Source: Pempheris klunzingeri (lineage: Eukaryota > Chordata > Actinopteri > Acropomatiformes > Pempheridae). Taken from it: 64,000 bases of DNA. The notes beneath the pieces were generated by a model that did not search any database, had not been told where the DNA came from, and saw nothing but the letters and a program-made list of their open reading frames with translations. The position numbers and the translations under genes are program-made. The stretch spans positions 8,273,501 through 8,337,500 of the forward strand of contig NC_092020.1 in the NCBI RefSeq assembly GCF_042242105.1, written 5' to 3'. Numbering within the stretch: position 1 is the stretch's first letter; the number at the start of each line of letters is the position of its first letter. Below, piece by piece: positions 1-41,977 of the stretch.

Positions 1-170
1 GTTAGCAATTGCTTCTTTTTGGATAAAACTGGTGAGCCTCAGCTTCAGTGCTCAAGACCATTCAGCCGCACTGCCTCCATTTCCAGAATTTTATATTGGT
101 CGTCAATAGGTCTTTTGTCAACGATGGGCAAAATAGTACATTGTCTTTGTAAGCAAACAGATGAACGTGC

Positions 171-183
171 TGCCGTCTAGTGG
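171..183 (-). promoter_or_regulatory. CTCF-like motif in the Leu module (example copy)
   Basis: The minus strand reads CCACTAGACGGCA, one base away from the vertebrate CTCF core pattern CCASYAGRKGGCR. The same 13-mer lies about 170 bp beyond the 3' end of nearly every Leu gene in the array. Binding is inference; the mismatch is at a position where CTCF prefers G or T. Confidence 0.3.
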
Positions 184-345
184 TTCTGAGGAAAAACTGT
201 TCCATAGTTTGCTTCAGGGCCGGCTTTGCTAATTCACAACCAATCAAATGCTTGCCTAGACTTTACACAATGTTACCATTGGCTTCAGCCCTCTCAAGCC
301 TGGTCCTGCTTTAGAACGGCAACAGAGATTACCTTCATTGTCAAG

Positions 346-427
346 TGGCAGTGGTGGGATTCGAACCCACGCCTCCTGAGAGACTGGAGCCTAAATCCAG
401 CGCCTTTGACCACTCGGCCACACTACC
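346..427 (-). tRNA. tRNA-Leu (TAG), HOR A
   Basis: Leucine tRNA reading CUA codons. Its 82 nt form a class II cloverleaf: 7-bp acceptor stem opening GGTAGTG and closing CACTGCC, discriminator A, anticodon loop TTTAGGC within CTGGA/TCCAG, a long variable arm (GTCTCTCAGGAGGC) and the T loop TTCGAAT. The A box TGGCCGAGTGG and B box GGTTCGAATCC match the Pol III internal promoter. There is no intron and no encoded CCA. The first run of T's on the coding strand beyond the gene is about 150 nt away (complement of 192-196). The body matches vertebrate Leu-TAG genes closely. Confidence 0.96.
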
Positions 428-553
428 TGACAAGGAGCTTCTGTCATCACTAACTCAGTGACAAAGTGAGGAAGCCACACAGGGTGGATCCAAAACGTAT
501 TCCTTGCGTGAAAACATTACATTGCGATGCTGATAGTCCACAGTATTTGCTAT

Positions 554-624
554 TAGGAGAGGATGGTTTCTGTCCATCGACCTTTGGGTTCCACGCCAGA
601 ATGCATCCACTGCGCCACTCTGCT
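554..624 (-). pseudogene. Pseudo-tRNA derived from iMet, HOR A
   Basis: The 5' end matches iMet for about 15 nt and the T-stem region matches too. The anticodon arm reads TCTGG-CGTGGAA-CCCAA and does not pair properly. The acceptor has a C-C clash, and the B box reads GGACAGAAACC instead of GGATCGAAACC, losing its core TCG. It should be neither a Pol III promoter nor a foldable tRNA. Its left flank shares about 45 bp with the iMet unit flank, so it descends from an iMet unit. Confidence 0.85.
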
Positions 625-1075
625 TGCAGTTTTAGGCTTTGGGGCTTGCGCTCTAGGATTTACTAATCTGTTATGATTGTGCAAAAATCTCGTGATTCAC
701 GAGAACTACAGATGCACGATAGAGAACAATGTTAGCAATTGCTTCTTTTTGGATAAAACTGGTGAGCCTCAACTTCAGCGCTCAAGACCATTCAGCCGCA
801 CTGCCTCCATTTCCAGAATTTTATATTGGTCGTCAATAGGTCTTTTGTCAACGATGGGCAAAATAGTACATTGTCTTTGTAAGCTAACAGATGAACGTGC
901 TGCCGTCTAGTGGTTCTGAGGAAAAACTGCTCCATAGTTTGCTTCAGGGCCGACTTTGCTAATTCACAACCAATCAAATGCTTGCCTAGACTTTACACAA
1001 TATTACCATTGGCTTCAGCCCTTCCAAGCCTGGTCCTGCTTTAGAACGGCAACAGAGATTACCTTCATTGTCAAG

Positions 1076-1157
1076 TGGCAGTGGTGGGATTCGAACCCAC
1101 GCCTCCTGAGAGACTGGAGCCTTAATCCAGCGCCTTTGACCACTCGGCCACACTACC
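1076..1157 (-). tRNA. tRNA-Leu (AAG), HOR A
   Basis: Leucine tRNA reading CUU and, after A34-to-inosine editing, CUC and CUA. The 82-nt body is identical to the Leu(TAG) gene 730 bp to its left except at anticodon position 34 (loop TTAAGGC). A and B boxes are intact. The module flanks are also about 95% alike, so the pair arose by duplication. It precedes the linker that leads into the iMet block. Confidence 0.96.
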
Positions 1158-1262
1158 TGACAAGGAGCGTCTGTCATCACTAACTCAGTGACAAAGTGAG
1201 GAAGCCACACAGGGTGGCTCCATGGAGATATTTCAAAGCATAAAATACAGATATTATTGCTA

Positions 1263-1463
1263 GGCATTACTGAACGACATAAGGTACCTGAAATGTGAAT
1301 TTTGTGTCCAGAGCACTGAAGAAAGACATCCAGCCCTAGACGCTTGTGCCATTAAGTCCCTGTTCACTTGAAAACATTGAAATGACAATGTGCGTGACAA
1401 ACCTGGACCAGCACAGATGGGACTTGACACAATAAAGTGCTTGCAAAAATCACAGTGAATCAT
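1263..1463. other. Linker between Leu(AAG) and the iMet block (example copy)
   Basis: About 200 bp found once per HOR and nowhere else in the window. I see no RNA gene, motif or coding potential in it. An AAAAA at 1445-1449 gives the first T run downstream of the first iMet gene. Confidence 0.6.
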
Positions 1464-1584
1464 TTGGCATACTGTAGAACGAACAGCATCCTATGGACAT
1501 TCCCAAGTTCACTCCAAGAACTTTGAATGTAAATCCAGGAAATTGGGACAGCATGGTGCTTTACCATTCCAAATAGCTCACAGT

Positions 1585-1656
1585 TAGCAGAGGATGGTTT
1601 CGATCCATCGACCTCTGGGTTATGGGCCCAGCACGCTTCCGCTGCGCCACTCTGCT
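1585..1656 (-). tRNA. tRNA-iMet (CAT), HOR A copy 1
   Basis: Initiator methionine tRNA. The 72 nt equal the vertebrate initiator as I know it. It has the A1-T72 end pair, three G-C pairs (GGG/CCC) next to the CCCATAA anticodon loop, and ATCGAAA in place of TTC in the T loop. A box TGGCGCAGCGG and B box GGATCGAAACC are present. There is no intron and no encoded CCA. No T4 run occurs on the coding strand for about 135 nt downstream. An AT-rich patch lies 35-52 bp upstream (1691-1708). Confidence 0.97.
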
Positions 1657-1936
1657 CTCCCATTTGCTGGTCAGGGCTTGCCCACCAGTCACTTATTAAT
1701 CATTTATGTCTGATAAGATATTGGAAGTCACGGCAAAACGTATTCCTTGTGTGAAAACATTACATTGCGATGCTGATAGTCGAGAATATTGACTATGACA
1801 ATTGCAGTGAAGCATTTGGCATACTGTAGAACGAACAGCATCCTATGGACATTCCCAAGTTCACTCCAAGAACTTTGAATGTAAATCCTGGAAATTGGGA
1901 CAGCATGGGGCTTTACCATTCCAAATAGCTCACAGT

Positions 1937-2008
1937 TAGCAGAGGATGGTTTCGATCCATCGACCTCTGGGTTATGGGCCCAGCACGCTTCCGCTGCGCC
2001 ACTCTGCT
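1937..2008 (-). tRNA. tRNA-iMet (CAT), HOR A copy 2
   Basis: Consensus body. The usual AAAA of the downstream flank is interrupted here (GACAATT near 1798), pushing the first possible T4 still farther away. Confidence 0.96.
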
Positions 2009-2288
2009 CTCCCATTTGCTGGTCAGGGCTTGCCCACCAGTCACTTATTAATCATTTATGTCTGTAACGATATAGGAATTCACGGCAAAACGTATTCCTT
2101 GTGTGAAAACATTACATTGCGATGCTGATAGTCTAGAATATTGACTATGAAAATTGCAGCGAAGCATTTGGCATACTGTAGAACAAACAGCATCCTATGG
2201 ACATTCCCAAGTTCACTCCAAGAACTTTGAATGTAAATCCTGGAAATTGGGACAGCATGGGGCTTTACCATTCCAAATAGCTCACAGT

Positions 2289-2360
2289 TAGCAGAGGATG
2301 GTTTCGATCCATCGACCTCTGGGTTATGGGCCCAGCACGCTTCCGCTGCGCCACTCTGCT
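2289..2360 (-). tRNA. tRNA-iMet (CAT), HOR A copy 3 (last)
   Basis: Consensus body. Its upstream flank is the last-copy type, leading into the half pseudo-iMet. Confidence 0.96.
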
Positions 2361-2480
2361 CTCCCATTTGCTGGTCAGGGCTTGCCCACCAGTCACTTAT
2401 TAATCATTTATGTCTGTAAAGATATTGGAATTCACGGCAAAACGTATTCCTTGCGTGAAAACATTACATTGCGATGCTGA

Positions 2481-2504
2481 ATGCATCCGCTGCGCCACTC
2501 TGCT
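2481..2504 (-). pseudogene. Half pseudo-iMet, HOR B
   Basis: Only the first 24 nt of the tRNA remain (AGCAGAGTGGCGCAGCGG then ATGCAT). It is the pseudo-iMet with its 3' two-thirds deleted and marks the start of each HOR. Confidence 0.8.
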
Positions 2505-2955
2505 TACAGTTTTAGGGTTTGGGGCTTGCGCACTAGGATTTACTAATCTGTTGTGATTGTGCAAAAATCTCGTGATTCACGGGAACTACAGATGCAAGAC
2601 AGAGAACAATGTTAGCAATTGCTTCTTTTTGGATAAAACTGGTGAGCCTCAGCTTCAGCGCTCAAGACCATTCAGCCGCACTGCCTCCATTTCCAGAATT
2701 TTATATTGGTCGTCAATAGGTCTTTTGTCAACGATGGGCAAAATAGTACATTGTCTTTGTAAGCAAACAGATGAACGTGCTGCCGTCTAGTGGTTCTGAG
2801 GAAAAACTGTTCCATAGTTTGCTTCAGGGCCGGCTTTGCTAATTCACAACCAATCAAATGCTTGCCTAGACTTTACACAATGTTACCATTGGCTTCAGCC
2901 CTTCCAAGCCTGGTCCTGCTTTAGAACGGCAACAGAGATTACCTTCATTGTCAAG

Positions 2956-3037
2956 TGGCAGTGGTGGGATTCGAACCCACGCCTCCTGAGAGACTGGAGC
3001 CTAAATCCAGCGCCTTTGACCACTCGGCCACACTACC
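2956..3037 (-). tRNA. tRNA-Leu (TAG), HOR B
   Basis: Consensus 82-nt body. Confidence 0.96.
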
Positions 3038-3163
3038 TGACAAGGAGCTTCTGTCATCACTAACTCAGTGACAAAGTGAGGAAGCCACACAGGGTGGATC
3101 CAAAACGTATTCCTTGCGTGAAAACATTACATTGCGATGCTGATAGTCCACAGTATTTGCTAT

Positions 3164-3234
3164 TAGGAGAGGATGGTTTCTGTCCATCGACCTTTGGGTT
3201 CCACGCCAGAATGCATCCACTGCGCCACTCTGCT
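3164..3234 (-). pseudogene. Pseudo-iMet, HOR B
   Basis: Same defects as the HOR A copy. Confidence 0.85.
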
Positions 3235-3685
3235 TGCAGTTTTAGGCTTTGGGGCTTGCGCTCTAGGATTTACTAATCTGTTATGATTGTGCAAAAATCT
3301 CGTGATTCACGAGAACTACAGATGCACGATAGAGAACAATGTTAGCAATTGCTTCTTTTTGGATAAAACTGGTGAGCCTCAACTTCAGCGCTCAAGACCA
3401 TTCAGCCGCACTGCCTCCATTTCCAGAATTTTATATTGGTCGTCAATAGGTCTTTTGTCAACGATGGGCAAAATAGTACATTGTCTTTGTAAGCTAACAG
3501 ATGAACGTGCTGCCGTCTAGTGGTTCTGAGGAAAAACTGCTCCATAGTTTGCTTCAGGGCCGACTTTGCTAATTCACAACCAATCAAATGCTTGCCTAGA
3601 CTTTACACAATGTTACCATTGGCTTCAGCCCTTCCAAGCCTGGTCCTGCTTTAGAACGGCAACAGAGATTACCTTCATTGTCAAG

Positions 3686-3767
3686 TGGCAGTGGTGGGAT
3701 TCGAACCCACGCCTCCTGAGAGACTGGAGCCTTAATCCAGCGCCTTTGACCACTCGGCCACACTACC
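3686..3767 (-). tRNA. tRNA-Leu (AAG), HOR B
   Basis: Consensus 82-nt body. Confidence 0.96.
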
Positions 3768-4194
3768 TGACAAGGAGCGTCTGTCATCACTAACTCAGTG
3801 ACAAAGTGAGGAAGCCACACAGGGTGGCTCCATGGAGATATTTCAAAGCATAAAATACAGATATTATTGCTAGGCATTACTGAACGACATAAGGTACCTG
3901 AAATGTGAATTTTGTGTCCACAGCACTGAAGAAAGACATCCAGCCCTAGACGCTTGTGCCATTAAGTCCCTGTTCACTTGAAAACATTGAAATGACAATG
4001 TGCGTGACAAACCTGGACCAGCACAGATGGGACTTGACACAATAAAGTGCTTGCAAAAATCACAGTGAATCATTTGGCATACTGTAGAACGAACAGCATC
4101 CTATGGACATTCCCAAGTTCACTCCAAGAACTTTGAATGTAAATCCAGGAAATTGGGACAGCATGGTGCTTTACCATTCCAAATAGCTCACAGT

Positions 4195-4266
4195 TAGCAG
4201 AGGATGGTTTCGATCCATCGACCTCTGGGTTATGGGCCCAGCACGCTTCCGCTGCGCCACTCTGCT
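4195..4266 (-). tRNA. tRNA-iMet (CAT), HOR B copy 1
   Basis: Consensus body, first-copy flank type. Confidence 0.96.
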
Positions 4267-4546
4267 CTCCCATTTGCTGGTCAGGGCTTGCCCACCAGTC
4301 ACTTATTAACCATTTATGTCTGATAAGATATTGGAAGTCACGGCAAAACGTATTCCTTGTGTGAAAACATTACATTGCGATGCTGATAGTCGAGAATATT
4401 GACTATGAAAATTGCAGTGAAGCATTTGGCATACTGTAGAACGAACAGCATCCTATGGACATTCCCAAGTTCACTCCAAGAACTTTGAATGTAAATCCTG
4501 GAAATTGGGACAGCATGGGGCTTTACCATTCCAAATAGCTCACAGT

Positions 4547-4618
4547 TAGCAGAGGATAGTTTCGATCCATCGACCTCTGGGTTATGGGCCCAGCACGCTT
4601 CCGCTGCGCCACTCTGCT
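4547..4618 (-). tRNA. tRNA-iMet (CAT), HOR B copy 2, T-stem variant
   Basis: One C-to-T change in the 3' T-stem strand (CTATC for CCATC) turns a G-C pair into G-U. The B box also changes. Probably still foldable. Confidence 0.93.
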
Positions 4619-4898
4619 CTCCCATTTGCTGGTCAGGGCTTGCCCACCAGTCACTTATTAATCATTTATGTCTGTAACGATATAGGAATTCACGGCAAAA
4701 CGTATTCCTTGTGTGAAAACATTACATTGCGATGCTGATAGTCTAGAATATTGACTATGAAAATTGCAGCGAAGCATTTGGCATACTGTAGAACGAACAG
4801 CATCCTATGGACATTCCCAAGTTCACTCCAAGAACTTTGAATGTAAATCCTGGAAATTGGGACAGCATGGGGCTTTACCATTCCAAATAGCTCACAGT

Positions 4899-4970
4899 TA
4901 GCAGAGGATGGTTTCGATCCATCGACCTCTGGGTTATGGGCCCAGCACGCTTCCGCTGCGCCACTCTGCT
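4899..4970 (-). tRNA. tRNA-iMet (CAT), HOR B copy 3 (last)
   Basis: Consensus body. Confidence 0.96.
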
Positions 4971-5090
4971 CTCCCATTTGCTGGTCAGGGCTTGCCCACC
5001 AGTCACTTATTAATCATTTATGTCTGTAAAGATATTGGAATTCACGGCAAAACGTATTCCTTGCGTGAAAACATTACATTGCGATGCTGA

Positions 5091-5114
5091 ATGCATCCGC
5101 TGCGCCACTCTGCT
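5091..5114 (-). pseudogene. Half pseudo-iMet, HOR C
   Basis: 24-nt 5' remnant at the HOR start. Confidence 0.8.
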
Positions 5115-5565
5115 TACAGTTTTAGGGTTTGGGGCTTGCGCACTAGGATTTACTAATCTGTTGTGATTGTGCAAAAATCTCGTGATTCACGGGAACTACA
5201 GATGCAAGACAGAGAACAATGTTAGCAATTGCTTCTTTTTGGATAAAACTGGTGAGCCTCAGCTTCAGCGCTCAAGACCATTCAGCCGCACTGCCTCCAT
5301 TTCCAGAATTTTATATTGGTCGTCAATAGGTCTTTTGTCAACGATGGGAAAAATAGTACATTGTCTTTGTAAGCAAACAGATGAACGTGCTGCCGTCTAG
5401 TGGTTCTGAGGAAAAACTGTTCCATAGTTTGCTTCAGGGCCGGCTTTGCTAATTCACAACCAATCAAATGCTTGCCTATACTTTACACAATGTTACCATA
5501 GGCTTCAGCCCTTCCAAGCCTGGTCCTGCTTTAGAAGAGCAACAGAGGTTGCCTTCATTTTCAAG

Positions 5566-5647
5566 TGGCAGTGGTGGGATTCGAACCCACGCCTCCTGAG
5601 AGACTGGAGCCTAAATCCAGCGCCTTTGACCACTCGGCCACACTACC
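5566..5647 (-). tRNA. tRNA-Leu (TAG), HOR C
   Basis: Consensus body. From this HOR on, the TAG downstream flank carries the AGAGCAACAGAGG variant. Confidence 0.96.
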
Positions 5648-5773
5648 TGACAAGGAGCTTCTGTCATCACTAACTCAGTGACAAAGTGAGGAAGCCACAC
5701 AGGGTGGATCCAAAACGTATTCCTTGCGTGAAAACATTACATTGCGATGCTGATAGTCCACAGTATTTGCTAT

Positions 5774-5844
5774 TAGGAGAGGATGGTTTCTGTCCATCGA
5801 CCTTTGGGTTCCACGCCAGAATGCATCCACTGCGCCACTCTGCT
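5774..5844 (-). pseudogene. Pseudo-iMet, HOR C
   Basis: Same defects as the HOR A copy. Confidence 0.85.
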
Positions 5845-6295
5845 TGCAGTTTTAGGCTTTGGGGCTTGCGCACTAGGATTTACTAATCTGTTATGATTGT
5901 GCAAAAATCTCGTGATTCACGAGAACTACAGATGCACGATAGAGAACAATGTTAGCAATTGCTTCTTTTCAGATAAAACTGGTGAGCCTCAACTTCAGCG
6001 CTCAAGACCATTCAGCCGCACTGCCTCCATTTCCAGAATTTTATATTGGTCGTCAATAGGTCTTTTGTCAACGATGGGCAAAATAGTACATTGTCTTTGT
6101 AAGCTAACAGATGAACGTGCTGCCGTCTAGTGGTTCTGAGGAAAAACTGCTCCATAGTTTGCTTCAGGGCCGACTTTGCTAATTCACGACCAATCAAATG
6201 CTTGCCTAGACTTTACACAATGTTACCATTGGCTTCAGCCCTTCCAAGCCTGGTCCTGCTTTAGAACGGCAACAGAGATTACCTTCATTGTCAAG

Positions 6296-6377
6296 TGGCA
6301 GTGGTGGGATTCGAACCCACGCCTCCTGAGAGACTGGAGCCTTAATCCAGCGCCTTTGACCACTCGGCCACACTACC
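6296..6377 (-). tRNA. tRNA-Leu (AAG), HOR C
   Basis: Consensus body. Its upstream flank carries the 7-bp-shorter patch shared with HOR E. Confidence 0.96.
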
Positions 6378-6797
6378 TGACAAGGAGCGTCTGTCATCAC
6401 TAACTCAGTGACAAAGTGAGGAAGATATGGAGACATGGAGATATTTCAAAGCATAAAATACAGATATTATTGCTAGGCATTACTGAACGACATAAGGTAC
6501 CTGAAATGTGAATTTTGTGTCCACAGCACTGAAGAAAGACATCCAGCCCTAGACGCTTGTGCCATTAAGTCCCTGTTCACTTGAAAACATTGAAATGACA
6601 ATGTGCGTGACAAACCTGGACCAGCACAGATGGGACTTGACACAATAAAGTGCTTGCAAAAATCACAGTGAATCATTTGGCATACTGTAGAACGAACAGC
6701 ATCCTATGGACATTCCCAAGTTCACTCCAAGAACTTTGAATGTAAATCCAGGAAATTGGGACAGCATGGTGCTTTACCATTCCAAATAGCTCACAGT

Positions 6798-6869
6798 TAG
6801 CAGAGGATGGTTTCGATCCATCGACCTCTGGGTTATGGGCCCAGCACGCTTCCGCTGCGCCACTCTGCT
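6798..6869 (-). tRNA. tRNA-iMet (CAT), HOR C copy 1
   Basis: Consensus body. Confidence 0.96.
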
Positions 6870-7149
6870 CTCCCATTTGCTGGTCAGGGCTTGCCCACCA
6901 GTCACTTATTAACCATTTATGTCTGATAAGATATTGGAAGTCACGGCAAAACGTATTCCTTGTGTGAAAACATTACATTGCGATGCTGATAGTCGAGAAT
7001 ATTGACTATGAAAATTGCAGTGAAGCATTTGGCATACTGTAGAACGAACAGCATCCTATGGACATTCCCAAGTTCACTCCAAGAACTTTGAATGTAAATC
7101 CTGGAAATTGGGACAGCATGGGGCTTTACCATTCCAAATAGCTCACAGT

Positions 7150-7221
7150 TAGCAGAGGATGGTTTCGATCCATCGACCTCTGGGTTATGGGCCCAGCACG
7201 CTTCCACTGCGCCACTCTGCT
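7150..7221 (-). tRNA. tRNA-iMet (CAT), HOR C copy 2, D-loop variant
   Basis: C-to-T in the D loop (CAGTGGAAG). This is a CpG site and leaves stems unaffected. Confidence 0.95.
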
Positions 7222-7501
7222 CTCCCATTTGCTGGTCAGGGCTTGCCCACCAGTCACTTATTAACCATTTATGTCTGATAAGATATTGGAAGTCACGGCA
7301 AAACGTATTCCTTGTGTGAAAACATTACATTGCGATGCTGATAGTCGAGAATATTGACTATGAAAATCGCAGCGAAGCATTTGGCATACTGTAGAACGAA
7401 CAGCATCCTATGGACATTCCCAAGTTCACTCCAAGAACTTTGAATGTAAATCCAGGAAATTGGGACAGCATGGTGCTTTACCATTCCAAATAGCTCACAG
7501 T

Positions 7502-7573
7502 TAGCAGAGGATGGTTTCGATCCATCGACCTCTGGGTTATGGGCCCAGCACGCTTCCGCTGCGCCACTCTGCT
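7502..7573 (-). tRNA. tRNA-iMet (CAT), HOR C copy 3
   Basis: Consensus body. Confidence 0.96.
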
Positions 7574-7853
7574 CTCCCATTTGCTGGTCAGGGCTTGCCC
7601 ACCAGTCACTTATTAATCATTTATGTCTGTAACGATATAGGAATTCACGGCAAAACGTATTCCTTGTGTGAAAACATTACATTGCGATGCTGATAGTCTA
7701 GAATATTGACTATGAAAATTGCAGCGAAGCATTTGGCATACTGTAGAACGAACAGCATCCTATGGACATTCCCAAGTTCACTCCAAGAACTTTGAATGTA
7801 AATCCTGGAAATTGGGACAGCATGGGGCTTTACCATTCCAAATAGCTCACAGT

Positions 7854-7925
7854 TAGCAGAGGATGGTTTCGATCCATCGACCTCTGGGTTATGGGCCCAG
7901 CACGCTTCCGCTGCGCCACTCTGCT
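7854..7925 (-). tRNA. tRNA-iMet (CAT), HOR C copy 4 (last)
   Basis: Consensus body. Confidence 0.96.
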
Positions 7926-8045
7926 CTCCCATTTGCTGGTCAGGGCTTGCCCACCAGTCACTTATTAATCATTTATGTCTGTAAAGATATTGGAATTCAC
8001 GGCAAAACGTATTCCTTGCGTGAAAACATTACATTGCGATGCTGA

Positions 8046-8069
8046 ATGCATCCGCTGCGCCACTCTGCT
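8046..8069 (-). pseudogene. Half pseudo-iMet, HOR D
   Basis: 24-nt 5' remnant at the HOR start. Confidence 0.8.
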
Positions 8070-8520
8070 TACAGTTTTAGGGTTTGGGGCTTGCGCACTA
8101 GGATTTACTAATCTGTTGTGATTGTGCAAAAATCTCGTGATTCACGGGAACTACAGATGCAAGACAGAGAACAATGTTAGCAATTGCTTCTTTTTGGATA
8201 AAACTGGTGAGCCTCAGCTTCAGCGCTCAAGACCATTCAGCCGCACTGCCTCCATTTCCAGAATTTTATATTGGTCGTCAATAGGTCTTTTGTCAACGAT
8301 GGGCAAAATAGTACATTGTCTTTGTAAGCAAACAGATGAACGTGCTGCCGTCTAGTGGTTCTGAGGAAAAACTGTTCCATAGTTTGCTTCAGGGCCGGCT
8401 TTGCTAATTCACAACCAATCAAATGCTTGCCTATACTTTACACAATGTTACCATAGGCTTCAGCCCTTCCAAGCCTGGTCCTGCTTTAGAAGAGCAACAG
8501 AGGTTGCCTTCATTTTCAAG

Positions 8521-8602
8521 TGGCAGTGGTGGGATTCGAACCCACGCCTCCTGAGAGACTGGAGCCTAAATCCAGCGCCTTTGACCACTCGGCCACACTA
8601 CC
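8521..8602 (-). tRNA. tRNA-Leu (TAG), HOR D
   Basis: Consensus body. Confidence 0.96.
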
Positions 8603-8728
8603 TGACAAGGAGCTTCTGTCATCACTAACTCAGTGACAAAGTGAGGAAGCCACACAGGGTGGATCCAAAACGTATTCCTTGCGTGAAAACATTACATTGC
8701 GATGCTGATAGTCCACAGTATTTGCTAT

Positions 8729-8799
8729 TAGGAGAGGATGGTTTCTGTCCATCGACCTTTGGGTTCCACGCCAGAATGCATCCACTGCGCCACTCTGCT
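8729..8799 (-). pseudogene. Pseudo-iMet, HOR D
   Basis: Same defects as the HOR A copy. Confidence 0.85.
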
Positions 8800-9250
8800 T
8801 GCAGTTTTAGGCTTTGGGGCTTGCGCACTAGGATTTACTAATCTGTTATGATTGTGCAAAAATCTCGTGATTCACGAGAACTACAGATGCACGATAGAGA
8901 ACAATGTTAGCAATTGCTTCTTTTCGGATAAAACTGGTGAGCCTCAACTTCAGCGCTCAAGACCATTCAGCCGCACTGCCTCCATTTCCAGAATTTTATA
9001 TTGGTCGTCAATAGGTCTTTTGTCAACGATGGGCAAAATAGTACATTGTCTTTGTAAGCTAACAGATGAACGTGCTGCCGTCTAGTGGTTCTGAGGAAAA
9101 ACTGCTCCATAGTTGGCTTCAGGGCCGACTTTGCTAATTCACGACCAATCAAATGCTTGCCTAGACTTTACACAATGTTACCATTGGCTTCAGCCCTTCC
9201 AAGCCTGGTCCTGCTTTAGAACGGCAACAGAGATTACCTTCATTGTCAAG

Positions 9251-9332
9251 TGGCAGTGGTGGGATTCGAACCCACGCCTCCTGAGAGACTGGAGCCTTAA
9301 TCCAGCGCCTTTGACCACTCGGCCACACTACC
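9251..9332 (-). tRNA. tRNA-Leu (AAG), HOR D
   Basis: Consensus body. Its downstream flank has a G near 9115 shared only with HOR F. Confidence 0.96.
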
Positions 9333-9759
9333 TGACAAGGAGCGTCTGTCATCACTAACTCAGTGACAAAGTGAGGAAGCCACACAGGGTGGCTCCATGG
9401 AGATATTTCAAAGCATAAAATACAGATATTATTGCTAGGCATTACTGAACGACATAAGGTACCTGAAATGTGAATTTTGTGTCCACAGCACTGAAGAAAG
9501 ACATCCAGCCCTAGACGCTTGTGCCATTAAGTCCCTGTTCACTTGAAAACATTGAAATGACAATGTGCGTGACAAACCTGGACCAGCACAGATGGGACTT
9601 GACACAATAAAGTGCTTGCAAAAATCACAGTGAATCATTTGGCATACTGTAGAACGAACAGCATCCTATGGACATTCCCAAGTTCACTCCAAGAACTTTG
9701 AATGTAACTCCAGGAAATTGGGACAGCATGGTGCTTTACCATTCCAAATAGCTCACAGT

Positions 9760-9831
9760 TAGCAGAGGATGGTTTCGATCCATCGACCTCTGGGTTATGG
9801 GCCCAGCACGCTTCCGCTGCGCCACTCTGCT
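9760..9831 (-). tRNA. tRNA-iMet (CAT), HOR D copy 1
   Basis: Consensus body. The flank variant AACTCCAGG near 9706 is shared with HOR F copy 1. Confidence 0.96.
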
Positions 9832-31427: not shown

Positions 31428-31553
31428 TGACAAGGAGCTTCTGTCATCACTAACTCAGTGACAAAGTGAGGAAGCCACACAGGGTGGATCCAAAACGTAT
31501 TCCTTGCGTGAAAACATTACATTGCGATGCTGATAGTCCACAGTATTTGCTAT

Positions 31554-32585: not shown

Positions 32586-32657
32586 TAGCAGAGGATGGTT
32601 TCGATCCATCGACCTCTGGGTTATGGGCCCAGCACGCTTCCGCTGCGCCACTCTGCT
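32586..32657 (-). tRNA. tRNA-iMet (CAT), HOR K copy 1
   Basis: Consensus body. Confidence 0.96.
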
Positions 32658-32937
32658 CTCCCATTTGCTGGTCAGGGCTTGCCCACCAGTCACTTATTAA
32701 CCATTTATGTCTGATAAGATATTGGAAGTCACGGCAAAACGTATTCCTTGTGTGAAAACATTACATTGCGATGCTGATAGTCGAGAATATTGACTATGAA
32801 AATTGCAGCGAAGCATTTGGCATACTGTAGAACGAACAGCATCCTATGGACATTCCCAAGTTCACTCCAAGAACTTTGAATGTAAATCCTGGAAATTGGG
32901 ACAGCATGGGGCTTTACCATTCCAAATAGCTCACAGT

Positions 32938-33009
32938 TAGCAGAGGATGGTTTCGATCCATCGACCTCTGGGTTATGGGCCCAGCACGCTTCCACTGCGC
33001 CACTCTGCT
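32938..33009 (-). tRNA. tRNA-iMet (CAT), HOR K copy 2, D-loop variant
   Basis: CAGTGGAAG variant. Followed five units later by a second D-loop variant. Confidence 0.95.
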
Positions 33010-33289
33010 CTCCCATTTGCTGGTCAGGGCTTGCCCACCAGTCACTTATTAACCATTTATGTCTGATAAGATATTGGAAGTCACGGCAAAACGTATTCCT
33101 TGTGTGAAAACATTACATTGCGATGCTGATAGTCGAGAATATTGACTATGAAAATCGCAGCGAAGCATTTGGCATACTGTAGAACGAACAGCATCCTATG
33201 GACATTCCCAAGTTCACTCCAAGAACTTTGAATGTAAATCCAGGAAATTGGGACAGCATGGTGCTTTACCATTCCAAATAGCTCACAGT

Positions 33290-33361
33290 TAGCAGAGGAT
33301 GGTTTCGATCCATCGACCTCTGGGTTATGGGCCCAGCACGCTTCCGCTGCGCCACTCTGCT
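33290..33361 (-). tRNA. tRNA-iMet (CAT), HOR K copy 3
   Basis: Consensus body. Confidence 0.96.
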
Positions 33362-33641
33362 CTCCCATTTGCTGGTCAGGGCTTGCCCACCAGTCACTTA
33401 TTAATCATTTATGTCTGTAACGATATAGGAATTCACGGCAAAACGTATTCCTTGTGTGAAAACATTACATTGCGATGCTGATAGTCTAGAATATTGACTA
33501 TGAAAATTGCAGCGAAGCATTTGGCATACTGTAGAACGAACAGCATCCTATGGACATTCCCAAGTTCACTCCAAGAACTTTGAATGTAAATCCTGGAAAT
33601 TGGGACAGCATGGGGCTTTACCATTCCAAATAGCTCACAGT

Positions 33642-33713
33642 TAGCAGAGGATGGTTTCGATCCATCGACCTCTGGGTTATGGGCCCAGCACGCTTCCGCT
33701 GCGCCACTCTGCT
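33642..33713 (-). tRNA. tRNA-iMet (CAT), HOR K copy 4
   Basis: Consensus body. Confidence 0.96.
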
Positions 33714-33993
33714 CTCCCATTTGCTGGTCAGGGCTTGCCCACCAGTCACTTATTAATCATTTATGTCTGTAACGATATAGGAATTCACGGCAAAACGTAT
33801 TCCTTGTGTGAAAACATTACATTGCGATGCTGATAGTCTAGAATATTGACTATGAAAATTGCAGCGAAGCATTTGGCATACTGTAGAACGAACAGCATCC
33901 TATGGACATTCCCAAGTTCACTCCAAGAACTTTGAATGTAAATCCTGGAAATTGGGACAGCATGGGGCTTTACCATTCCAAATAGCTCACAGT

Positions 33994-34065
33994 TAGCAGA
34001 GGATGGTTTCGATCCATCGACCTCTGGGTTATGGGCCCAGCACGCTTCCGCTGCGCCACTCTGCT
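33994..34065 (-). tRNA. tRNA-iMet (CAT), HOR K copy 5
   Basis: Consensus body. Confidence 0.96.
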
Positions 34066-34345
34066 CTCCCATTTGCTGGTCAGGGCTTGCCCACCAGTCA
34101 CTTATTAATCATTTATGTCTGTAACGATATAGGAATTCACGGCAAAACGTATTCCTTGTGTGAAAACATTACATTGCGATGCTGATAGTCTAGAATATTG
34201 ACTATGAAAATTGCAGCGAAGCATTTGGCATACTGTAGAACGAACAGCATCCTATGGACATTCCCAAGTTCACTCCAAGAACTTTGAATGTAAATCCTGG
34301 AAATTGGGACAGCATGGGGCTTTACCATTCCAAATAGCTCACAGT

Positions 34346-34417
34346 TAGCAGAGGATGGTTTCGATCCATCGACCTCTGGGTTATGGGCCCAGCACGCTTC
34401 CACTGCGCCACTCTGCT
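34346..34417 (-). tRNA. tRNA-iMet (CAT), HOR K copy 6, D-loop variant
   Basis: Second CAGTGGAAG copy in HOR K, the marker of an internal block duplication. Confidence 0.95.
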
Positions 34418-34697
34418 CTCCCATTTGCTGGTCAGGGCTTGCCCACCAGTCACTTATTAACCATTTATGTCTGATAAGATATTGGAAGTCACGGCAAAAC
34501 GTATTCCTTGTGTGAAAACATTACATTGCGATGCTGATAGTCGAGAATATTGACTATGAAAATCGCAGCGAAGCATTTGGCATACTGTAGAACGAACAGC
34601 ATCCTATGGACATTCCCAAGTTCACTCCAAGAACTTTGAATGTAAATCCAGGAAATTGGGACAGCATGGTGCTTTACCATTCCAAATAGCTCACAGT

Positions 34698-34769
34698 TAG
34701 CAGAGGATGGTTTCGATCCATCGACCTCTGGGTTATGGGCCCAGCACGCTTCCGCTGCGCCACTCTGCT
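34698..34769 (-). tRNA. tRNA-iMet (CAT), HOR K copy 7
   Basis: Consensus body. Confidence 0.96.
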
Positions 34770-35049
34770 CTCCCATTTGCTGGTCAGGGCTTGCCCACCA
34801 GTCACTTATTAATCATTTATGTCTGTAACGATATAGGAATTCACGGCAAAACGTATTCCTTGTGTGAAAACATTACATTGCGATGCTGATAGTCTAGAAT
34901 ATTGACTATGAAAATTGCAGCGAAGCATTTGGCATACTGTAGAACGAACAGCATCCTATGGACATTCCCAAGTTCACTCCAAGAACTTTGAATGTAAATC
35001 CTGGAAATTGGGACAGCATGGGGCTTTACCATTCCAAATAGCTCACAGT

Positions 35050-35121
35050 TAGCAGAGGATGGTTTCGATCCATCGACCTCTGGGTTATGGGCCCAGCACG
35101 CTTCCGCTGCGCCACTCTGCT
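35050..35121 (-). tRNA. tRNA-iMet (CAT), HOR K copy 8
   Basis: Consensus body. Confidence 0.96.
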
Positions 35122-35401
35122 CTCCCATTTGCTGGTCAGGGCTTGCCCACCAGTCACTTATTAATCATTTATGTCTGTAACGATATAGGAATTCACGGCA
35201 AAACGTATTCCTTGTGTGAAAACATTACATTGCGATGCTGATAGTCTAGAATATTGACTATGAAAATTGCAGCGAAGCATTTGGCATACTGTAGAACGAA
35301 CAGCATCCTATGGACATTCCCAAGTTCACTCCAAGAACTTTGAATGTAAATCCTGGAAATTGGGACAGCATGGGGCTTTACCATTCCAAATAGCTCACAG
35401 T

Positions 35402-35473
35402 TAGCAGAGGATGGTTTCGATCCATCGACCTCTGGGTTATGGGCCCAGCACGCTTCCGCTGCGCCACTCTGCT
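35402..35473 (-). tRNA. tRNA-iMet (CAT), HOR K copy 9
   Basis: Consensus body. Confidence 0.96.
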
Positions 35474-35753
35474 CTCCCATTTGCTGGTCAGGGCTTGCCC
35501 ACCAGTCACTTATTAATCATTTATGTCTGTAACGATATAGGAATTCACGGCAAAACGTATTCCTTGTGTGAAAACATTACATTGCGATGCTGATAGTCTA
35601 GAATATTGACTATGAAAATTGCAGCGAAGCATTTGGCATACTGTAGAACGAACAGCATCCTATGGACATTCCCAAGTTCACTCCAAGAACTTTGAATGTA
35701 AATCCAGGAAATTGGGACAGCATGGGGGTTTACCATTCCAAACAGCTCACAGT

Positions 35754-35825
35754 TAGCAGAGGATGGTTTCGATCCATCGACCTCTGGGTTATGGGCCCAG
35801 CACGCTTCCGCTGCGCCACTCTGCT
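35754..35825 (-). tRNA. tRNA-iMet (CAT), HOR K copy 10
   Basis: Consensus body, with the GGGGGTTTACC flank variant. Confidence 0.96.
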
Positions 35826-36105
35826 CTCCCATTTGCTGGTCAGGGCTTGCCCACCAGTCACTTATTAATCATTTATGTCTGTAACGATATAGGAATTCAC
35901 AGCAAAACGTATTCCTTGTGTGAAAACATTACATTGCAATGCTGATAGTCTAGAATATTGACTATGAAAATTGCAGCGAAGCATTTGGCATACTGTAGAA
36001 CGAACAGCATCCTATGGACATTCCCAAGTTCACTCCAAGAACTTTGAATGTAAATCCTGGAAATTGGGACAGCATGGGGCTTTACCATTCCAAATAGCTC
36101 ACAGT

Positions 36106-36177
36106 TAGCAGAGGATGGTTTCGATCCATCGACCTCTGGGTTATGGGCCCAGCACGCTTCCGCTGCGCCACTCTGCT
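36106..36177 (-). tRNA. tRNA-iMet (CAT), HOR K copy 11 (last)
   Basis: Consensus body. Confidence 0.96.
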
Positions 36178-36297
36178 CTCCCATTTGCTGGTCAGGGCTT
36201 GCCCACCAGTCACTTATTAATCATTTATGTCTGTAAAGATATTGGAATTCACGGCAAAACGTATTCCTTGCGTGAAAACATTACATTGCGATGCTGA

Positions 36298-36321
36298 ATG
36301 CATCCGCTGCGCCACTCTGCT
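36298..36321 (-). pseudogene. Half pseudo-iMet, HOR L
   Basis: 24-nt 5' remnant at the HOR start. Confidence 0.8.
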
Positions 36322-36772
36322 TACAGTTTTAGGGTTTGGGGCTTGCGCACTAGGATTTACTAATCTGTTGTGATTGTGCAAAAATCTCGTGATTCACGGG
36401 AACTACAGATGCAAGACAGAGAACAATGTTAGCAATTGCTTCTTTTTGGATAAAACTGGTGAGCCTCAGCTTCAGCGCTCAAGACCATTCAGCCGCACTG
36501 CCTCCATTTCCAGAATTTTATATTGGTCGTCAATAGGTCTTTTGTCAACGATGGGCAAAATAGTACATTGTCTTTGTAAGCAAACAGATGAACGTGCTGC
36601 CGTCTAGTGGTTCTGAGGAAAAACTGTTCCATAGTTTGCTTCAGGGCCGGCTTTGCTAATTCACAACCAATCAAATGCTTGCCTATACTTTACACAATGT
36701 TACCATAGGCTTCAGCCCTTCCAAGCCTGGTCCTGCTTTAGAACGGCAACAGAGATTACCTTCATTGTCAAG

Positions 36773-36854
36773 TGGCAGTGGTGGGATTCGAACCCACGCC
36801 TCCTGAGAGACTGGAGCCTTAATCCAGCGCCTTTGACCACTCGGCCACACTACC
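36773..36854 (-). tRNA. tRNA-Leu (AAG), HOR L, in a hybrid module
   Basis: Consensus 82-nt AAG body. The left flank up to about 36740 is TAG-type (CCATAGGCTTCAG); from CGGCAACAGAG on it is AAG-type. A crossover between the two Leu modules removed 730 bp, including the pseudo-iMet. Confidence 0.95.
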
Positions 36855-37269
36855 TGACAAGGAGCGTCTGTCATCACTAACTCAGTGACAAAGTGAGGAA
36901 GCCACACAGGGTGGCTCCATGGAGATATTTCAAAGCATAAAATACAGATATTATTGCTAGGCATTACTGAACGACATAAGGTACCTGAAATGTGAATTTT
37001 GTGTCCACAGCACTGAAGAAAGACATCCAGCCCTAGACGCTTGTGCCATTAAGTCCCTGTTCACTTGAAAACATTGAAATGACAATGTGCGTGACAAACC
37101 TAGACCAGCACAGATGGGACTTGACACAATAAAGTGCTTGCAAAAATCACAGTGAATCATTTGGCATACTGTAGAACGAACAGCATCCTAAGTTCACTCC
37201 AAGAACTTTGAATGTAAATCCTGGAAATTGGGACAGCATGGGGCTTTACCATTCCAAATAGCTCACAGT

Positions 37270-37341
37270 TAGCAGAGGATGGTTTCGATCCATCGACCTC
37301 TGGGTTATGGGCCCAGCACGCTTCCGCTGCGCCACTCTGCT
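37270..37341 (-). tRNA. tRNA-iMet (CAT), HOR L copy 1
   Basis: Consensus body. Its downstream flank lacks 12 bp near 37190 (CATCCTAAGTTC). Confidence 0.95.
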
Positions 37342-37621
37342 CTCCCATTTGCTGGTCAGGGCTTGCCCACCAGTCACTTATTAATCATTTATGTCTGTAA
37401 CGATATAGGAATTCACGGCAAAACGTATTCCTTGTGTGAAAACATTACATTGCGATGCTGATAGTCTAGAATATTGACTATGAAAATTGCAGCGAAGCAT
37501 TTGGCATACTGTAGAACGAACAGCATCCTATGGACATTCCCAAGTTCACTCCAAGAACTTTGAATGTAAATCCTGGAAATTGGGACAGCATGGGGCTTTA
37601 CCATCCCAAATAGCTCACAGT

Positions 37622-37687
37622 TAGCAGAGGATGGTTTCGATCCATCGACCTCTGGGTTATGGAATGCATCCGCTGCGCCACTCTGCT
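37622..37687 (-). pseudogene. Chimeric iMet/pseudo-iMet, 66 nt
   Basis: The 3' part, from the CAT anticodon through the T arm and acceptor, is true iMet. The 5' part is the pseudo-iMet or half-pseudo type (GCGCAGCGGATGCAT). Six nucleotides are missing at the joint and the 5' strand of the anticodon stem is gone, so it should not fold. Confidence 0.88.
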
Positions 37688-38138
37688 TGCAGTTTTAGGC
37701 TTTAGGGCTTGCGCACTAGGATTTACTAATCTGTTATGATTGTGCAAAAATCTCGTGATTCACGAGAACTACAGATGCACGATAGAGAACAATGTTAGCA
37801 ATTGCTTCTTTTTGGATGAAACTGGTGAGCCTCAACTTCAGCGCTCAAGACCATTCAGCCGCACTGCCTCCATTTCCAGAATTTTATATTGGTCGTCAAT
37901 AGGTCTTTTGTCAACGATGGGCAAAATAGTACATTGTCTTTGTAAGCTAACAGATGAACGTGCTGCCGTCTAGTGGTTCTGAGGAAAAACTGCTCCATAG
38001 TTTGCTTCAGGGCCGACTTTGCTAATTCACAACCAATCAAATGCTTGCCTAGACTTTACACAATGTTACCATTGGCTTCAGCCCTTCCAAGCCTGGTCCT
38101 GCTTTAGAACGGCAACAGAGATTACCTTCATTGTCAAG

Positions 38139-38220
38139 TGGCAGTGGTGGGATTCGAACCCACGCCTCCTGAGAGACTGGAGCCTTAATCCAGCGCCTTT
38201 GACCACTCGGCCACACTACC
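38139..38220 (-). tRNA. tRNA-Leu (AAG), HOR M
   Basis: Consensus body in an all-AAG-type module. Confidence 0.96.
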
Positions 38221-38647
38221 TGACAAGGAGCGTCTGTCATCACTAACTCAGTGACAAAGTGAGGAAGCCACACAGGGTGGCTCCATGGAGATATTTCAAA
38301 GCATAAAATACAGATATTATTGCTAGGCATTACTGAACGACATAAGGTACCTGAAATGTGAATTTTGTGTCCACAGCACTGAAGAAAGACATCCAGCCCT
38401 AGACGCTTGTGCCATTAAGTCCCTGTTCACTTGAAAACATTGAAATGACAATGTGCATGACAAACCTGGACCAGCACAGATGGGACTTGACACAATAAAG
38501 TGCTTGCAAAAATCGCAGTGAATCATTTGGCATACTGTAGAACGAACAGCATCCTATGGACATTCCCAAGTTCACTCCAAGAACTTTGAATGTAAATCCA
38601 GGAAATTGGGACAGCATGGTGCTTTACCATTCCAAATAGCTCACAGT

Positions 38648-38719
38648 TAGCAGAGAATGGTTTCGATCCATCGACCTCTGGGTTATGGGCCCAGCACGCT
38701 TCCGCTGCGCCACTCTGCT
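38648..38719 (-). tRNA. tRNA-iMet (CAT), HOR M copy 1, T-stem variant
   Basis: C-to-T at the end of the T stem (CCATT) gives a G-U closing pair. Shared with HOR N copy 1. Confidence 0.93.
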
Positions 38720-38999
38720 CTCCCATTTGTTGGTCAGGGCTTGCCCACCAGTCACTTATTAACCATTTATGTCTGATAAGATATTGGAAGTCACGGCAAA
38801 ACGTATTCCTTGTGTGAAAACATTACATTGCGATGCTGATAGTCTAGAATATTGACTATGAAAATTGCAGTGAAGCATTTGGCATACTGTAGAACGAACA
38901 GCATCCTATGGACATTCCCAAGTTCACTCCAAGAACTTTGAATGTAAATCCTGAAAATTGGGACAGCATGGGGCTTTAACATTCCAAATAGCTCACAGT

Positions 39000-39071
39000 T
39001 AGCAGAGGATGGTTTCGATCCATCGACCTCTGGGTTATGGGCCCAGCACGCTTCCGCTGCGCCACTCTGCT
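39000..39071 (-). tRNA. tRNA-iMet (CAT), HOR M copy 2
   Basis: Consensus body. Confidence 0.96.
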
Positions 39072-39351
39072 CTCCCATTTGCTGGTCAGGGCTTGCCCAC
39101 CAGTCACTTATTAATCATTTATGTCTGTAACGATATAGGAATTCACGGCAAAACGTATTCCTTGTGTGAAAACATTACATTGCGATGCTGATAGTCTAGA
39201 ATATTCACTATGAAAATCACAGCGAAGCATTTGGCATACTGTAGAACGAACAGCATCCTATGGACATTCCCAAGTTCACTCCAAGAACTTTGAATGTAAA
39301 TCCAGGAAATTGGGACTGCATGGTGCTTTACCTTTCCAAATAGCTCACAGT

Positions 39352-39423
39352 TAGCAGAGGATGGTTTCGATCCATCGACCTCTGGGTTATGGGCCCAGCA
39401 CGCTTCCGCTGCGCCACTCTGCT
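39352..39423 (-). tRNA. tRNA-iMet (CAT), HOR M copy 3 (last)
   Basis: Consensus body. Flank differences (GGGACTGCATGG, TACCTTTCC) are shared with HOR N copy 3. Confidence 0.96.
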
Positions 39424-39543
39424 CTCCCATTTGCTGGTCAGGGCTTGCCCACCAGTCACTTATTAATCATTTATGTCTGTAAAGATATTGGAATTCACGG
39501 CAAAATGTATTCCTTGCGTGAAAACATTACATTGCGATGCTGA

Positions 39544-39567
39544 ATGCATCTGCTGCGCCACTCTGCT
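39544..39567 (-). pseudogene. Half pseudo-iMet, HOR N
   Basis: 24-nt remnant with a CATCTGC variant. Confidence 0.8.
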
Positions 39568-40018
39568 TACAGTTTTAGGGTTTGGGGCTTGCGCACTAGG
39601 ATTTACTAATCTGTTATGATTGTGCAAAAATCTCGTGATTCACGGGAACTACAGATGCAAGGCAGAGAACAATGTTAGCAATTGCTTCTTTTTGGATAAA
39701 ACTGGTGAGCCTCAACTTCAGCGCTCAAGACCATTCAGCCGCACTGCCTCCATTTCCAGAATTTTATATTGGTCGTCAATAGGTCTTTTGTCAACGATGG
39801 GCAAAATAGTACATTGTCTTTGTAAGCTAACAGATGAACGTGCTGCCGTCTAGTGGTTCTGAGGAAAAACTGCTCCATAGTTTGCTTCAGGGCCGACTTT
39901 GCTAATTCACAACCAATCAAATGCTTGCCTAGACTTTACACAATGTTACCATTGGCTTCAGCCCTTCCAAGCCTGGTCCTGCTTTAGAACGGCAACAGAG
40001 ATTACCTTCATTGTCAAG

Positions 40019-40100
40019 TGGCAGTGGTGGGATTCGAACCCACGCCTCCTGAGAGACTGGAGCCTTAATCCAGCGCCTTTGACCACTCGGCCACACTACT
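40019..40100 (-). tRNA. tRNA-Leu (AAG), HOR N, first-base mutant
   Basis: Position 1 is A instead of G, leaving an A-C mismatch at the end of the acceptor stem. Otherwise consensus. The mismatch could affect RNase P cleavage and charging. Confidence 0.88.
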
Positions 40101-40527
40101 TGACAAGGAGCGTCTGTCATCACTAACTCAGTGACAAAGTGAGGAAGCCACACAGGGTGGCTCCATGGAGATATTTCAAAGCATAAAATACAGATATTAT
40201 TGCTAGGCATTACTGAACGACATAAGGTACCTGAAATGTGAATTTTGTGTCCACAGCACTGAAGAAAGACATCCAGCCCTAGACGCTTGTGCCATTAAGT
40301 CCCTGTTCACTTGAAAACATTGAAATGACAATGTGCATGACAAACCTGGACCAGCACAGATGGGACTTGACACAATAAAGTGCTTGCAAAAATCGCAGTG
40401 AATCATTTGGCATACTGTAGAACGAACAGCATCCTATGGACATTCCCAAGTTCACTCCAAGAACTTTGAATGTAAATCCAGGAAATTGGGACAGCATGGT
40501 GCTTTACCATTCCAAATAGCTCACAGT

Positions 40528-40599
40528 TAGCAGAGAATGGTTTCGATCCATCGACCTCTGGGTTATGGGCCCAGCACGCTTCCGCTGCGCCACTCTGCT
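40528..40599 (-). tRNA. tRNA-iMet (CAT), HOR N copy 1, T-stem variant
   Basis: Same CCATT change as HOR M copy 1. Confidence 0.93.
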
Positions 40600-40879
40600 C
40601 TCCCATTTGCTGGTCAGGGCTTGCCCACCAGTCACTTATTAACCATTTATGTCTGATAAGATATTGGAAGTCACGGCAAAACGTATTCCTTGTGTGAAAA
40701 CATTACATTGCGATGCTGATAGTCTAGAATATTGACTATGAAAATTGCAGTGAAGCATTTGGCATACTGTAGAACGAACAGCATCCTATGGACATTCCCA
40801 AGTTCACTCCAAGAACTTTGAATGTAAATCCTGAAAATTGGGACAGCATGGGGCTTTAACATTCCAAATAGCTCACAGT

Positions 40880-40951
40880 TAGCAGAGGATGGTTTCGATC
40901 CATCGACCTCTGGGTTATGGGCCCAGCACGCTTCCGCTGCGCCACTCTGCT
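40880..40951 (-). tRNA. tRNA-iMet (CAT), HOR N copy 2
   Basis: Consensus body. Confidence 0.96.
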
Positions 40952-41231
40952 CTCCCATTTGCTGGTCAGGGCTTGCCCACCAGTCACTTATTAATCATTT
41001 ATGTCTGTAACGATATAGGAATTCACGGCAAAACGTATTCCTTGTGTGAAAACATTACATTGCGATGCTGATAGTCTAGAATATTCACTATGAAAATCAC
41101 AGCGAAGCATTTGGCATACTGTAGAACGAACAGCATCCTATGGACATTCCCAAGTTCACTCCAAGAACTTTGAATGTAAATCCAGGAAATTGGGACTGCA
41201 TGGTGCTTTACCTTTCCAAATAGCTCACAGT

Positions 41232-41303
41232 TAGCAGAGGATGGTTTCGATCCATCGACCTCTGGGTTATGGGCCCAGCACGCTTCCGCTGCGCCACTCT
41301 GCT
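41232..41303 (-). tRNA. tRNA-iMet (CAT), HOR N copy 3 (last)
   Basis: Consensus body. The right-most iMet of the array. Confidence 0.96.
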
Positions 41304-41423
41304 CTCCCATTTGCTGGTCAGGGCTTGCCCACCAGTCACTTATTAATCATTTATGTCTGTAAAGATATTGGAATTCACGGCAAAATGTATTCCTTGCGTG
41401 AAAACATTACATTGCGATGCTGA

Positions 41424-41447
41424 ATGCATCTGCTGCGCCACTCTGCT
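41424..41447 (-). pseudogene. Half pseudo-iMet, array tail
   Basis: 24-nt remnant identical to the HOR N copy. Confidence 0.8.
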
Positions 41448-41898
41448 TACAGTTTTAGGGTTTGGGGCTTGCGCACTAGGATTTACTAATCTGTTATGAT
41501 TGTGCAAAAATCTCGTGATTCACGGGAACTACAGATGCAAGGCAGAGAACAATGTTAGCAATTGCTTCTTTTTGGATAAAACTGGTGAGCCTCAACTTCA
41601 GCGCTCAAGACCATTCAGCCGCACTGCCTCCATTTCCAGAATTTTATATTGGTCGTCAATAGGTCTTTTGTCAACGATGGGCACAATAGTACATTGTCTT
41701 TGTAAGCAAACAGATGAATGTGCTGCCGTCTAGTGGTTCTGAGGAAAAACTGTTCCATAGTTTGCTTCAGGGCCGACTTTGCTAATTCACGACCAATCAA
41801 ATGCTTGCCTAGACTTTACACAATGTTACCATTGGCTTCAGCCCTTCCAAGCCTGGTCCTGCTTTAGAACGGCAACAGAGATTACCTTCATTTTCAAG

Positions 41899-41962
41899 TG
41901 GCAGTGGTGGGATTCGAACCCACGCCTTAATCCAGCGCCTTTGACCACTCGGCCACACTACC
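41899..41962 (-). pseudogene. Truncated tRNA-Leu (AAG) at the array edge, 64 nt
   Basis: Lacks 18 nt covering the variable arm and the 3' side of the anticodon stem. The deletion lies between two GCCT tetramers, suggesting slippage. A and B boxes remain, so it could be transcribed but not folded. Confidence 0.9.
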
Positions 41963-41977
41963 TGACAAGGAGCTTCT

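Follow-up and report, generated by a model that had tools for sequence, protein, structure and literature searches.

Giant tandem clusters of tRNA genes raise a simple question, namely whether so many copies supply the cell with tRNA or are carried along in a repeat that happens to contain genes. Here, we address it for a stretch of 64,000 nucleotides from the fish Pempheris klunzingeri (contig NC_092020.1, positions 8,273,501 to 8,337,500; hereafter, the window), most of which is occupied by an array of initiator methionine (iMet) and leucine (Leu) tRNA genes. Our reading, which we consider to have as good a chance of being right as of being wrong, is that of a two-level array of full-length genes bearing the marks of unequal exchange. 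It would likely serve as a tRNA supply of the egg or early-embryo type, with each gene transcribed by RNA polymerase III (Pol III) from its own promoter up to a predicted stop at a distal T-run.

Composition and extent of the array

ARAGORN recovered 87 tRNA genes in the window, located between 345 and 41303 and all of them (87/87) on the minus strand: 62 iMet(CAT), 14 Leu(AAG), and 11 Leu(TAG). A 26th Leu, deleted, appeared as an Rfam match at 41899-41962. An earlier note on this DNA had counted 62 full-length iMet and 25 Leu genes on a single strand over at least 42 kb, the same numbers found here, and the observation of a giant iMet/Leu array is confirmed. All 87 genes are full length and foldable. 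As the array extends to the first base of the window, its length is at least 42 kb. The sequence adjoining it on the left reads N, and the copy numbers given are those in the window; the readable sequence beyond the N stretch (four loci, 38 kb) contained neither tRNA nor any Rfam match. The majority iMet sequence (Table 1) is the usual vertebrate one. Each of the other 14 copies differs from it by a single C-to-T change, and four sites are affected in all. Among the Leu(AAG) genes outside the majority, four represent an 84-nt allele and one has a changed first base.

Two-level repeat structure

A 352-bp iMet monomer is nested inside a higher-order unit of 2.6 to 5.4 kb. From left to right, the units contain 3, 3, 4, 3, 4, 4, 5, 7, 5, 6, 11, 1, 3, and 3 iMet genes. 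The ten Leu(TAG) spacings (2610, 2610, 2955, 2610, 2955, 2945, 3314, 4019, 3315, and 3667) fit 2610 + 352(n-3), with n = 3, 3, 4, 3, 4, 4, 5, 7, 5, and 6 and deviations of only 0, -7, -17, or +1. The unit with 11 monomers (31345 to 36771) is also one base over (5427 = 5426 + 1), and the +1 units are those that carry the 84-nt Leu(AAG) allele (4 copies). This period rule, with its +1, -7, and -17 exceptions, had been given by the earlier note. It holds in the 11 full units but not in the three right-most ones (n = 1, 3, and 3, without Leu(TAG)), which the note had omitted.

Compared over 300 alignment columns, monomers occupying the same slot in the first 11 units share 99.94% identity on the Leu(TAG) side and 99.25% on the Leu(AAG) side (55 pairs each), against 98.06% for neighboring monomers (all 48 pairs). 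The 62 monomers represent 19 core haplotypes arranged in ordered strings, e.g., m12-m6-m7-m1-m13-m5, which recur with whole monomers added or lost. At a larger scale, the exact 5,982-bp repeat (Table 1) sits within a 9.2-kb repeat with an offset of 5565 and 99.64% identity. The array therefore displays what is expected of a higher-order repeat, i.e., same-slot identity above neighbor identity and gains and losses of whole monomers. This identity pattern and a perfectly duplicated block suggest unequal crossing-over, in two registers, as its apparent origin. Higher-order repeats of the alpha-satellite type share the excess of same-slot identity, the block duplications, and the divergent edge, but here a full-length tRNA gene and a spacer make up the monomer.

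Promoters, terminators, and the proposed mode of expression

Intact internal Pol III promoter patterns are present throughout the array. Using the usual A-box and B-box consensus, the A-box pattern was found in 87/87 genes (54 of the 62 iMet are identical across the A-box stretch and the other 8 still match) and the B-box pattern in 86/87. The first T-run is located at +136 behind 58/62 iMet genes (43, 43, 124, and 180 in the others) and at +149 behind 24/25 Leu genes (132 in the other), the Leu distances being counted from an ARAGORN end that takes in one base past the discriminator. The first 60 nt behind the genes are also free of interrupted T-runs of the kinds that we tested. There are from 2 to 6 T-runs in every intergenic gap, so read-through to the next gene need not be common. 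In humans, four T residues reportedly suffice for termination (PMC5356446). By composition, stretches free of four consecutive T residues (T4) are not improbable (in single-base shuffles, P = 0.40 and 0.67 for the iMet and Leu trailers, respectively), so the absence is remarkable only with regard to what working tRNA genes usually need.

We propose that each gene is transcribed by Pol III from its own internal promoter and that transcription stops, as predicted, only at the distal T-run. The resulting precursors of ~210 nt (iMet) and ~235 nt (Leu) would then be trimmed by the tRNA 3' endonuclease. Given the frog and zebrafish parallels, the tRNAs would presumably be used in oocytes and around genome activation.

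Parallels in other organisms

The nearest parallel named by the earlier note was the multi-tRNA tandem repeat of Xenopus laevis. This oocyte-type repeat is ~3.18 kb long, present in many copies, and composed of about eight genes of several kinds, iMet and Leu included. The comparison is supported, both being head-to-tail, same-strand repeats with several tRNA species, here iMet, Leu(AAG), and Leu(TAG). The differences are that ours contains only iMet and Leu and that the count of nested iMet monomers varies from unit to unit. According to a commentary (PMC11500080), the oocyte-specific tandem tRNA genes of the frog are Pol III targets at genome activation and carry 5-formylcytosine, a modification with a stimulating effect in an iMet plasmid; the same text calls initiator tRNA rate-limiting for cell growth. 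In zebrafish, egg tRNAs derive from highly repetitive regions, with support from expression, while for tRNAs present throughout, identical genes appear in both settings (PMC11417395). Another study places tRNA genes within the maternal RNA gene block and offers their maternal use as a hypothesis (PMC11075544). The clusters on the long arm of zebrafish chromosome 4 are, like ours, very large and mostly made of parallel genes (PMC11417395, PMC11075544, and PMC2888827), although the frequent pairs in Danio are K-N, K-S, and R-T (PMC2888827) instead of iMet-Leu. Outside animals, the Ser/Tyr (SYY) cluster of Arabidopsis is also a tandem repeat of tRNA genes, silenced in the majority of tissues but expressed in certain cells (PMC12308677); this is a plant cluster of Ser and Tyr genes with measured expression. 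The best reading appears to be that the array is a teleost counterpart of the frog oocyte-type and zebrafish maternal tRNA arrays.

The kind of structure is thus known, as large teleost tRNA clusters already are. What is new is the composition, the nested iMet expansion, and the lack of proximal terminators. The earlier note had seen no description of an iMet plus Leu(TAG)/Leu(AAG) combination and, among the matches listed in the openly licensed papers searched, we found no iMet-Leu array either.

Other tRNA genes in the same genome

We searched the genome (645.9 Mb in 439 contigs, the window being on contig C9); the best candidates were scored, and the genome-wide iMet counts are lower bounds. 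The search for separate genes elsewhere covered iMet and gave at least 10 full-length copies outside the array (Table 1; a further match, C9:7523612, is excluded from the 10). The array holds 62 of the at least 72 full-length iMet found. The earlier note considered the array far beyond ordinary demand, but how many genes are needed was inferred there, and tRNA clusters of fifty and more members have been reported in teleosts, where the clustered share of tRNA genes and pseudogenes reaches 87% in stickleback and 65% in zebrafish (PMC2888827). Overall, its interpretation is partly supported. The missing proximal terminators, the relics and differing right edge described below, and a second iMet array with Arg-iMet pairs come in addition to what it had noticed.

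For eight of these 10 genes, an Arg(CCT) gene ends 3 or 6 nt ahead of the iMet, and 7 of the 10 have T4 or T5 at +7 (the remaining three at +171, +299, and +369). The second array (C11:7105501-7121500, 16 kb) contains 6 full-length iMet, 24 copies (65 nt) without the anticodon region, all of which keep T4 at +7, and 8 Arg(CCT), of which two precede a broken iMet. On C11, Arg(CCT) and iMet form head-to-tail pairs, 3 or 6 nt apart; one pair outside the second array and six pairs within it have a single T-run at +7 behind iMet and none in between, an arrangement that resembles a dicistronic tRNA gene. The idea that the array iMet descends from such a pair was considered and rejected, no trace of an upstream Arg being found (local alignment score of 16, with 499/1000 shuffles as good). 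In the iMet copy at C15:5525269-5525341, a T-stem pair has changed from G-C to A-T on both sides, i.e., the change is compensated.

The lack of a nearby T4 is common in this genome and not peculiar to this array. In a small sample of other tRNA genes of the same genome, T4 was found within 20 nt in 2/20 clustered genes versus 7/13 seemingly isolated ones. The difference has a p of 0.013 per gene, 0.20 per cluster, and 0.24 when the two iMet arrays are added. In this comparison, classes and distances were entered by hand, exact duplicates were dropped, Arg(CCT) and iMet were excluded, some of the stretches behind the genes were shorter than 200 nt, and "isolated" rests on the best 63 of 29622 candidates. 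We regard the contrast as a lead, not a result, and it seems rather improbable to us that tRNA genes in arrays make up a Pol III class of their own, with transcription ending at a distal T-run. A tandem Lys(CTT) array (C1:28055172-28075469) has a spacing of ~600 bp; in both of the copies read, T4 first occurs at +196.

Among the matches listed (best 40 of 58 candidates), those of the spacer were only on C9, which fits local amplification rather than a dispersed tRNA-derived short interspersed element, a candidate that we rejected. The matches listed for the 651-bp Leu spacer did not include even the window's own copies, and this search is uninformative about its absence elsewhere. In separate collections of genome contigs and viral contigs, the iMet gene had 0 matches, as did the upstream region in the viral contigs.

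Alternative explanations

The serious rival is a largely inert tRNA satellite, in which genes were caught in a repeat that grows and shrinks by unequal exchange, homogenization alone keeps the copies alike, and few or none are transcribed. We consider it a real possibility, if one that falls short of probable. Several observations weigh against a working supply, and the first three of them also favor the satellite. None of the genes (0/87) has T4 within 42 nt of its 3' end, in contrast to 7 of the 10 outside iMet, and missing proximal terminators could mean weak output. The dead full-length iMet relic, found in every full unit with 10/11 copies identical, matches the genes in uniformity, so homogenization spreads dead genes as well as live ones. 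Genes and spacers are equally variable (4/72 versus 23/261 variable columns; Fisher p = 0.27); therefore, no within-array selection is claimed, and selection on the genes relative to the spacers was rejected as not significant. One of the Leu(TAG) genes, the other 10 being identical, has a G-to-A change in the T stem. Finally, in contrast to the zebrafish chromosome 4 block, no 5S rRNA or small nuclear RNA gene was matched by Rfam in the readable flanks, with only tRNA matches in window positions 36000-64000 and none in the four left loci (38 kb readable, N excluded). The second iMet array, mostly anticodon-deleted (24 deleted versus 6 full-length iMet), adds to the case for a satellite, but the 62 iMet and 25 Leu here are all full length and foldable, unlike those copies. 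Moreover, the amplified part is the intact gene monomer, from 1 to 11 per unit, whereas each full unit has just a single full iMet relic.

Much further down comes an assembly artefact, a short real array inflated to its present size, which we judge very unlikely. The exact 5,982-bp repeat within the 9.2-kb one could arise in this way, and the adjoining N sequence could be an assembly gap, but the 19 ordered monomer haplotypes, the 7- and 17-bp length differences, and the divergent right edge are unlike simple inflation. Least probable of all is a second product in the form of stable RNAs from the long 3' trailers (~136-149 nt), rejected as the principal explanation, for which the near-constant length (58/62 and 24/25) and an iMet trailer that folds somewhat better than shuffles (z = -2.0) would speak, but the A100 + T120 allele replaces the long hairpin with a different fold (T120 is present in 24/62 copies), the Leu trailer, over its first 136 nt, folds like shuffles (z = -0.7), and constant length follows from recent amplification.

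Relics, sequence changes, and the right edge

Both iMet and Leu relics are present in each of the 11 full units (Table 1). Across 49 fully homologous monomers, 7/29 variable sites are compatible with CpG transitions, including two within the gene, where C-to-T at CpG accounts for two of the four variable iMet sites. These changes are as expected if the array were methylated in the germ line, for which they offer slight evidence. With a CpG observed/expected ratio of 0.55, the array is less depleted than the flank (0.28). Rare sense-strand changes in the iMet monomers amount to 8 C>T versus 1 G>A, which may hint at transcription-linked damage; the corresponding numbers are 7 and 5 in the Leu(AAG) units and 2 and 2 in the Leu(TAG) units.

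The haplotypes of the right edge occur nowhere else in the array. The fragment that abuts it was presumed by eye to be of Tc1/mariner type, and the frame tested in it gave no Pfam match. In the young-looking transposon farther along, the transposase frame runs from stop to stop over 330 codons and has three Pfam domains well over the cut-offs; a transposase of this Sleeping-Beauty type is in keeping with a teleost genome.

Table 1. Features of the window and iMet genes located elsewhere in the genome
Feature	Position	Strand	Remarks
tRNA tandem array	1..41976	-	62 iMet, 14 Leu(AAG), 11 Leu(TAG), one deleted Leu; continues past left window end
Full higher-order units (11)	345..36771	-	Each with Leu(AAG), Leu(TAG), and iMet monomers
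iMet gene, majority sequence (example)	1585..1656	-	48/62 copies identical
Leu(TAG) gene (example)	2955..3037	-	10/11 copies identical
Leu(AAG) gene (example)	3685..3767	-	9/14 copies identical
84-nt Leu(AAG) allele	21074..21157; also at 25093, 28408, 32075	-	One inserted base; in +1-period units
Truncated iMet head (example)	2467..2505	-	At Leu(TAG) end of iMet run; 13 copies (11 identical, one mismatch in each of the other 2)
Decayed full-length iMet relic (example)	3160..3235	-	Lies in the Leu(AAG)-Leu(TAG) interval; every full unit has one copy (11 in all), of which 10 are identical and the other has one mismatch
Leu-like relic (example)	3369..3415	-	Downstream of Leu gene; 26 copies (14 identical, one mismatch in 11, two mismatches in 1)
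Exact 5,982-bp repeat	4559..10540, again at 10124-16105	-	Copies overlap; zero mismatches
Longest iMet monomer run	32447..36297	-	11 x 352 bp; monomers 2-5 and 6-9 are two 1,408-bp blocks, 100% identical
Divergent right edge	36772..41976	-	Three units without Leu(TAG), with 1, 3, and 3 iMet monomers; ends in deleted Leu (41899-41962)
Transposon-like fragment	41977..42432 (ends approximate)	-	Tc1/mariner-type look, by eye; abuts array end
Young-looking Tc1-type transposon	44612..46152	-	Inverted ends of 129 bp (99% complementary); transposase frame of Sleeping-Beauty type at 44857-45849
Outside iMet genes	C11:6749681, C11:21603932, C11:6724548, C15:5525269, and six in second array at C11:7.1 Mb		

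Implications

That arrayed tRNA genes feed the egg is put forward as a hypothesis in one of the zebrafish papers (PMC11075544) and supported by expression in the other (PMC11417395). The present array allows a direct test of which iMet genes make the egg tRNA, thanks to its array-specific trailers and the marker alleles C16T and C22T. If arrayed tRNA genes do make up a class that ends at a distal T-run, long-trailer precursors would mark the maternal tRNA gene set, and sequencing of the trailers would read its output in spite of the identical mature tRNAs. Should the lack of proximal terminators turn out to be general for clustered tRNA genes, it would also bear on how predicted tRNA genes are judged active or inactive.

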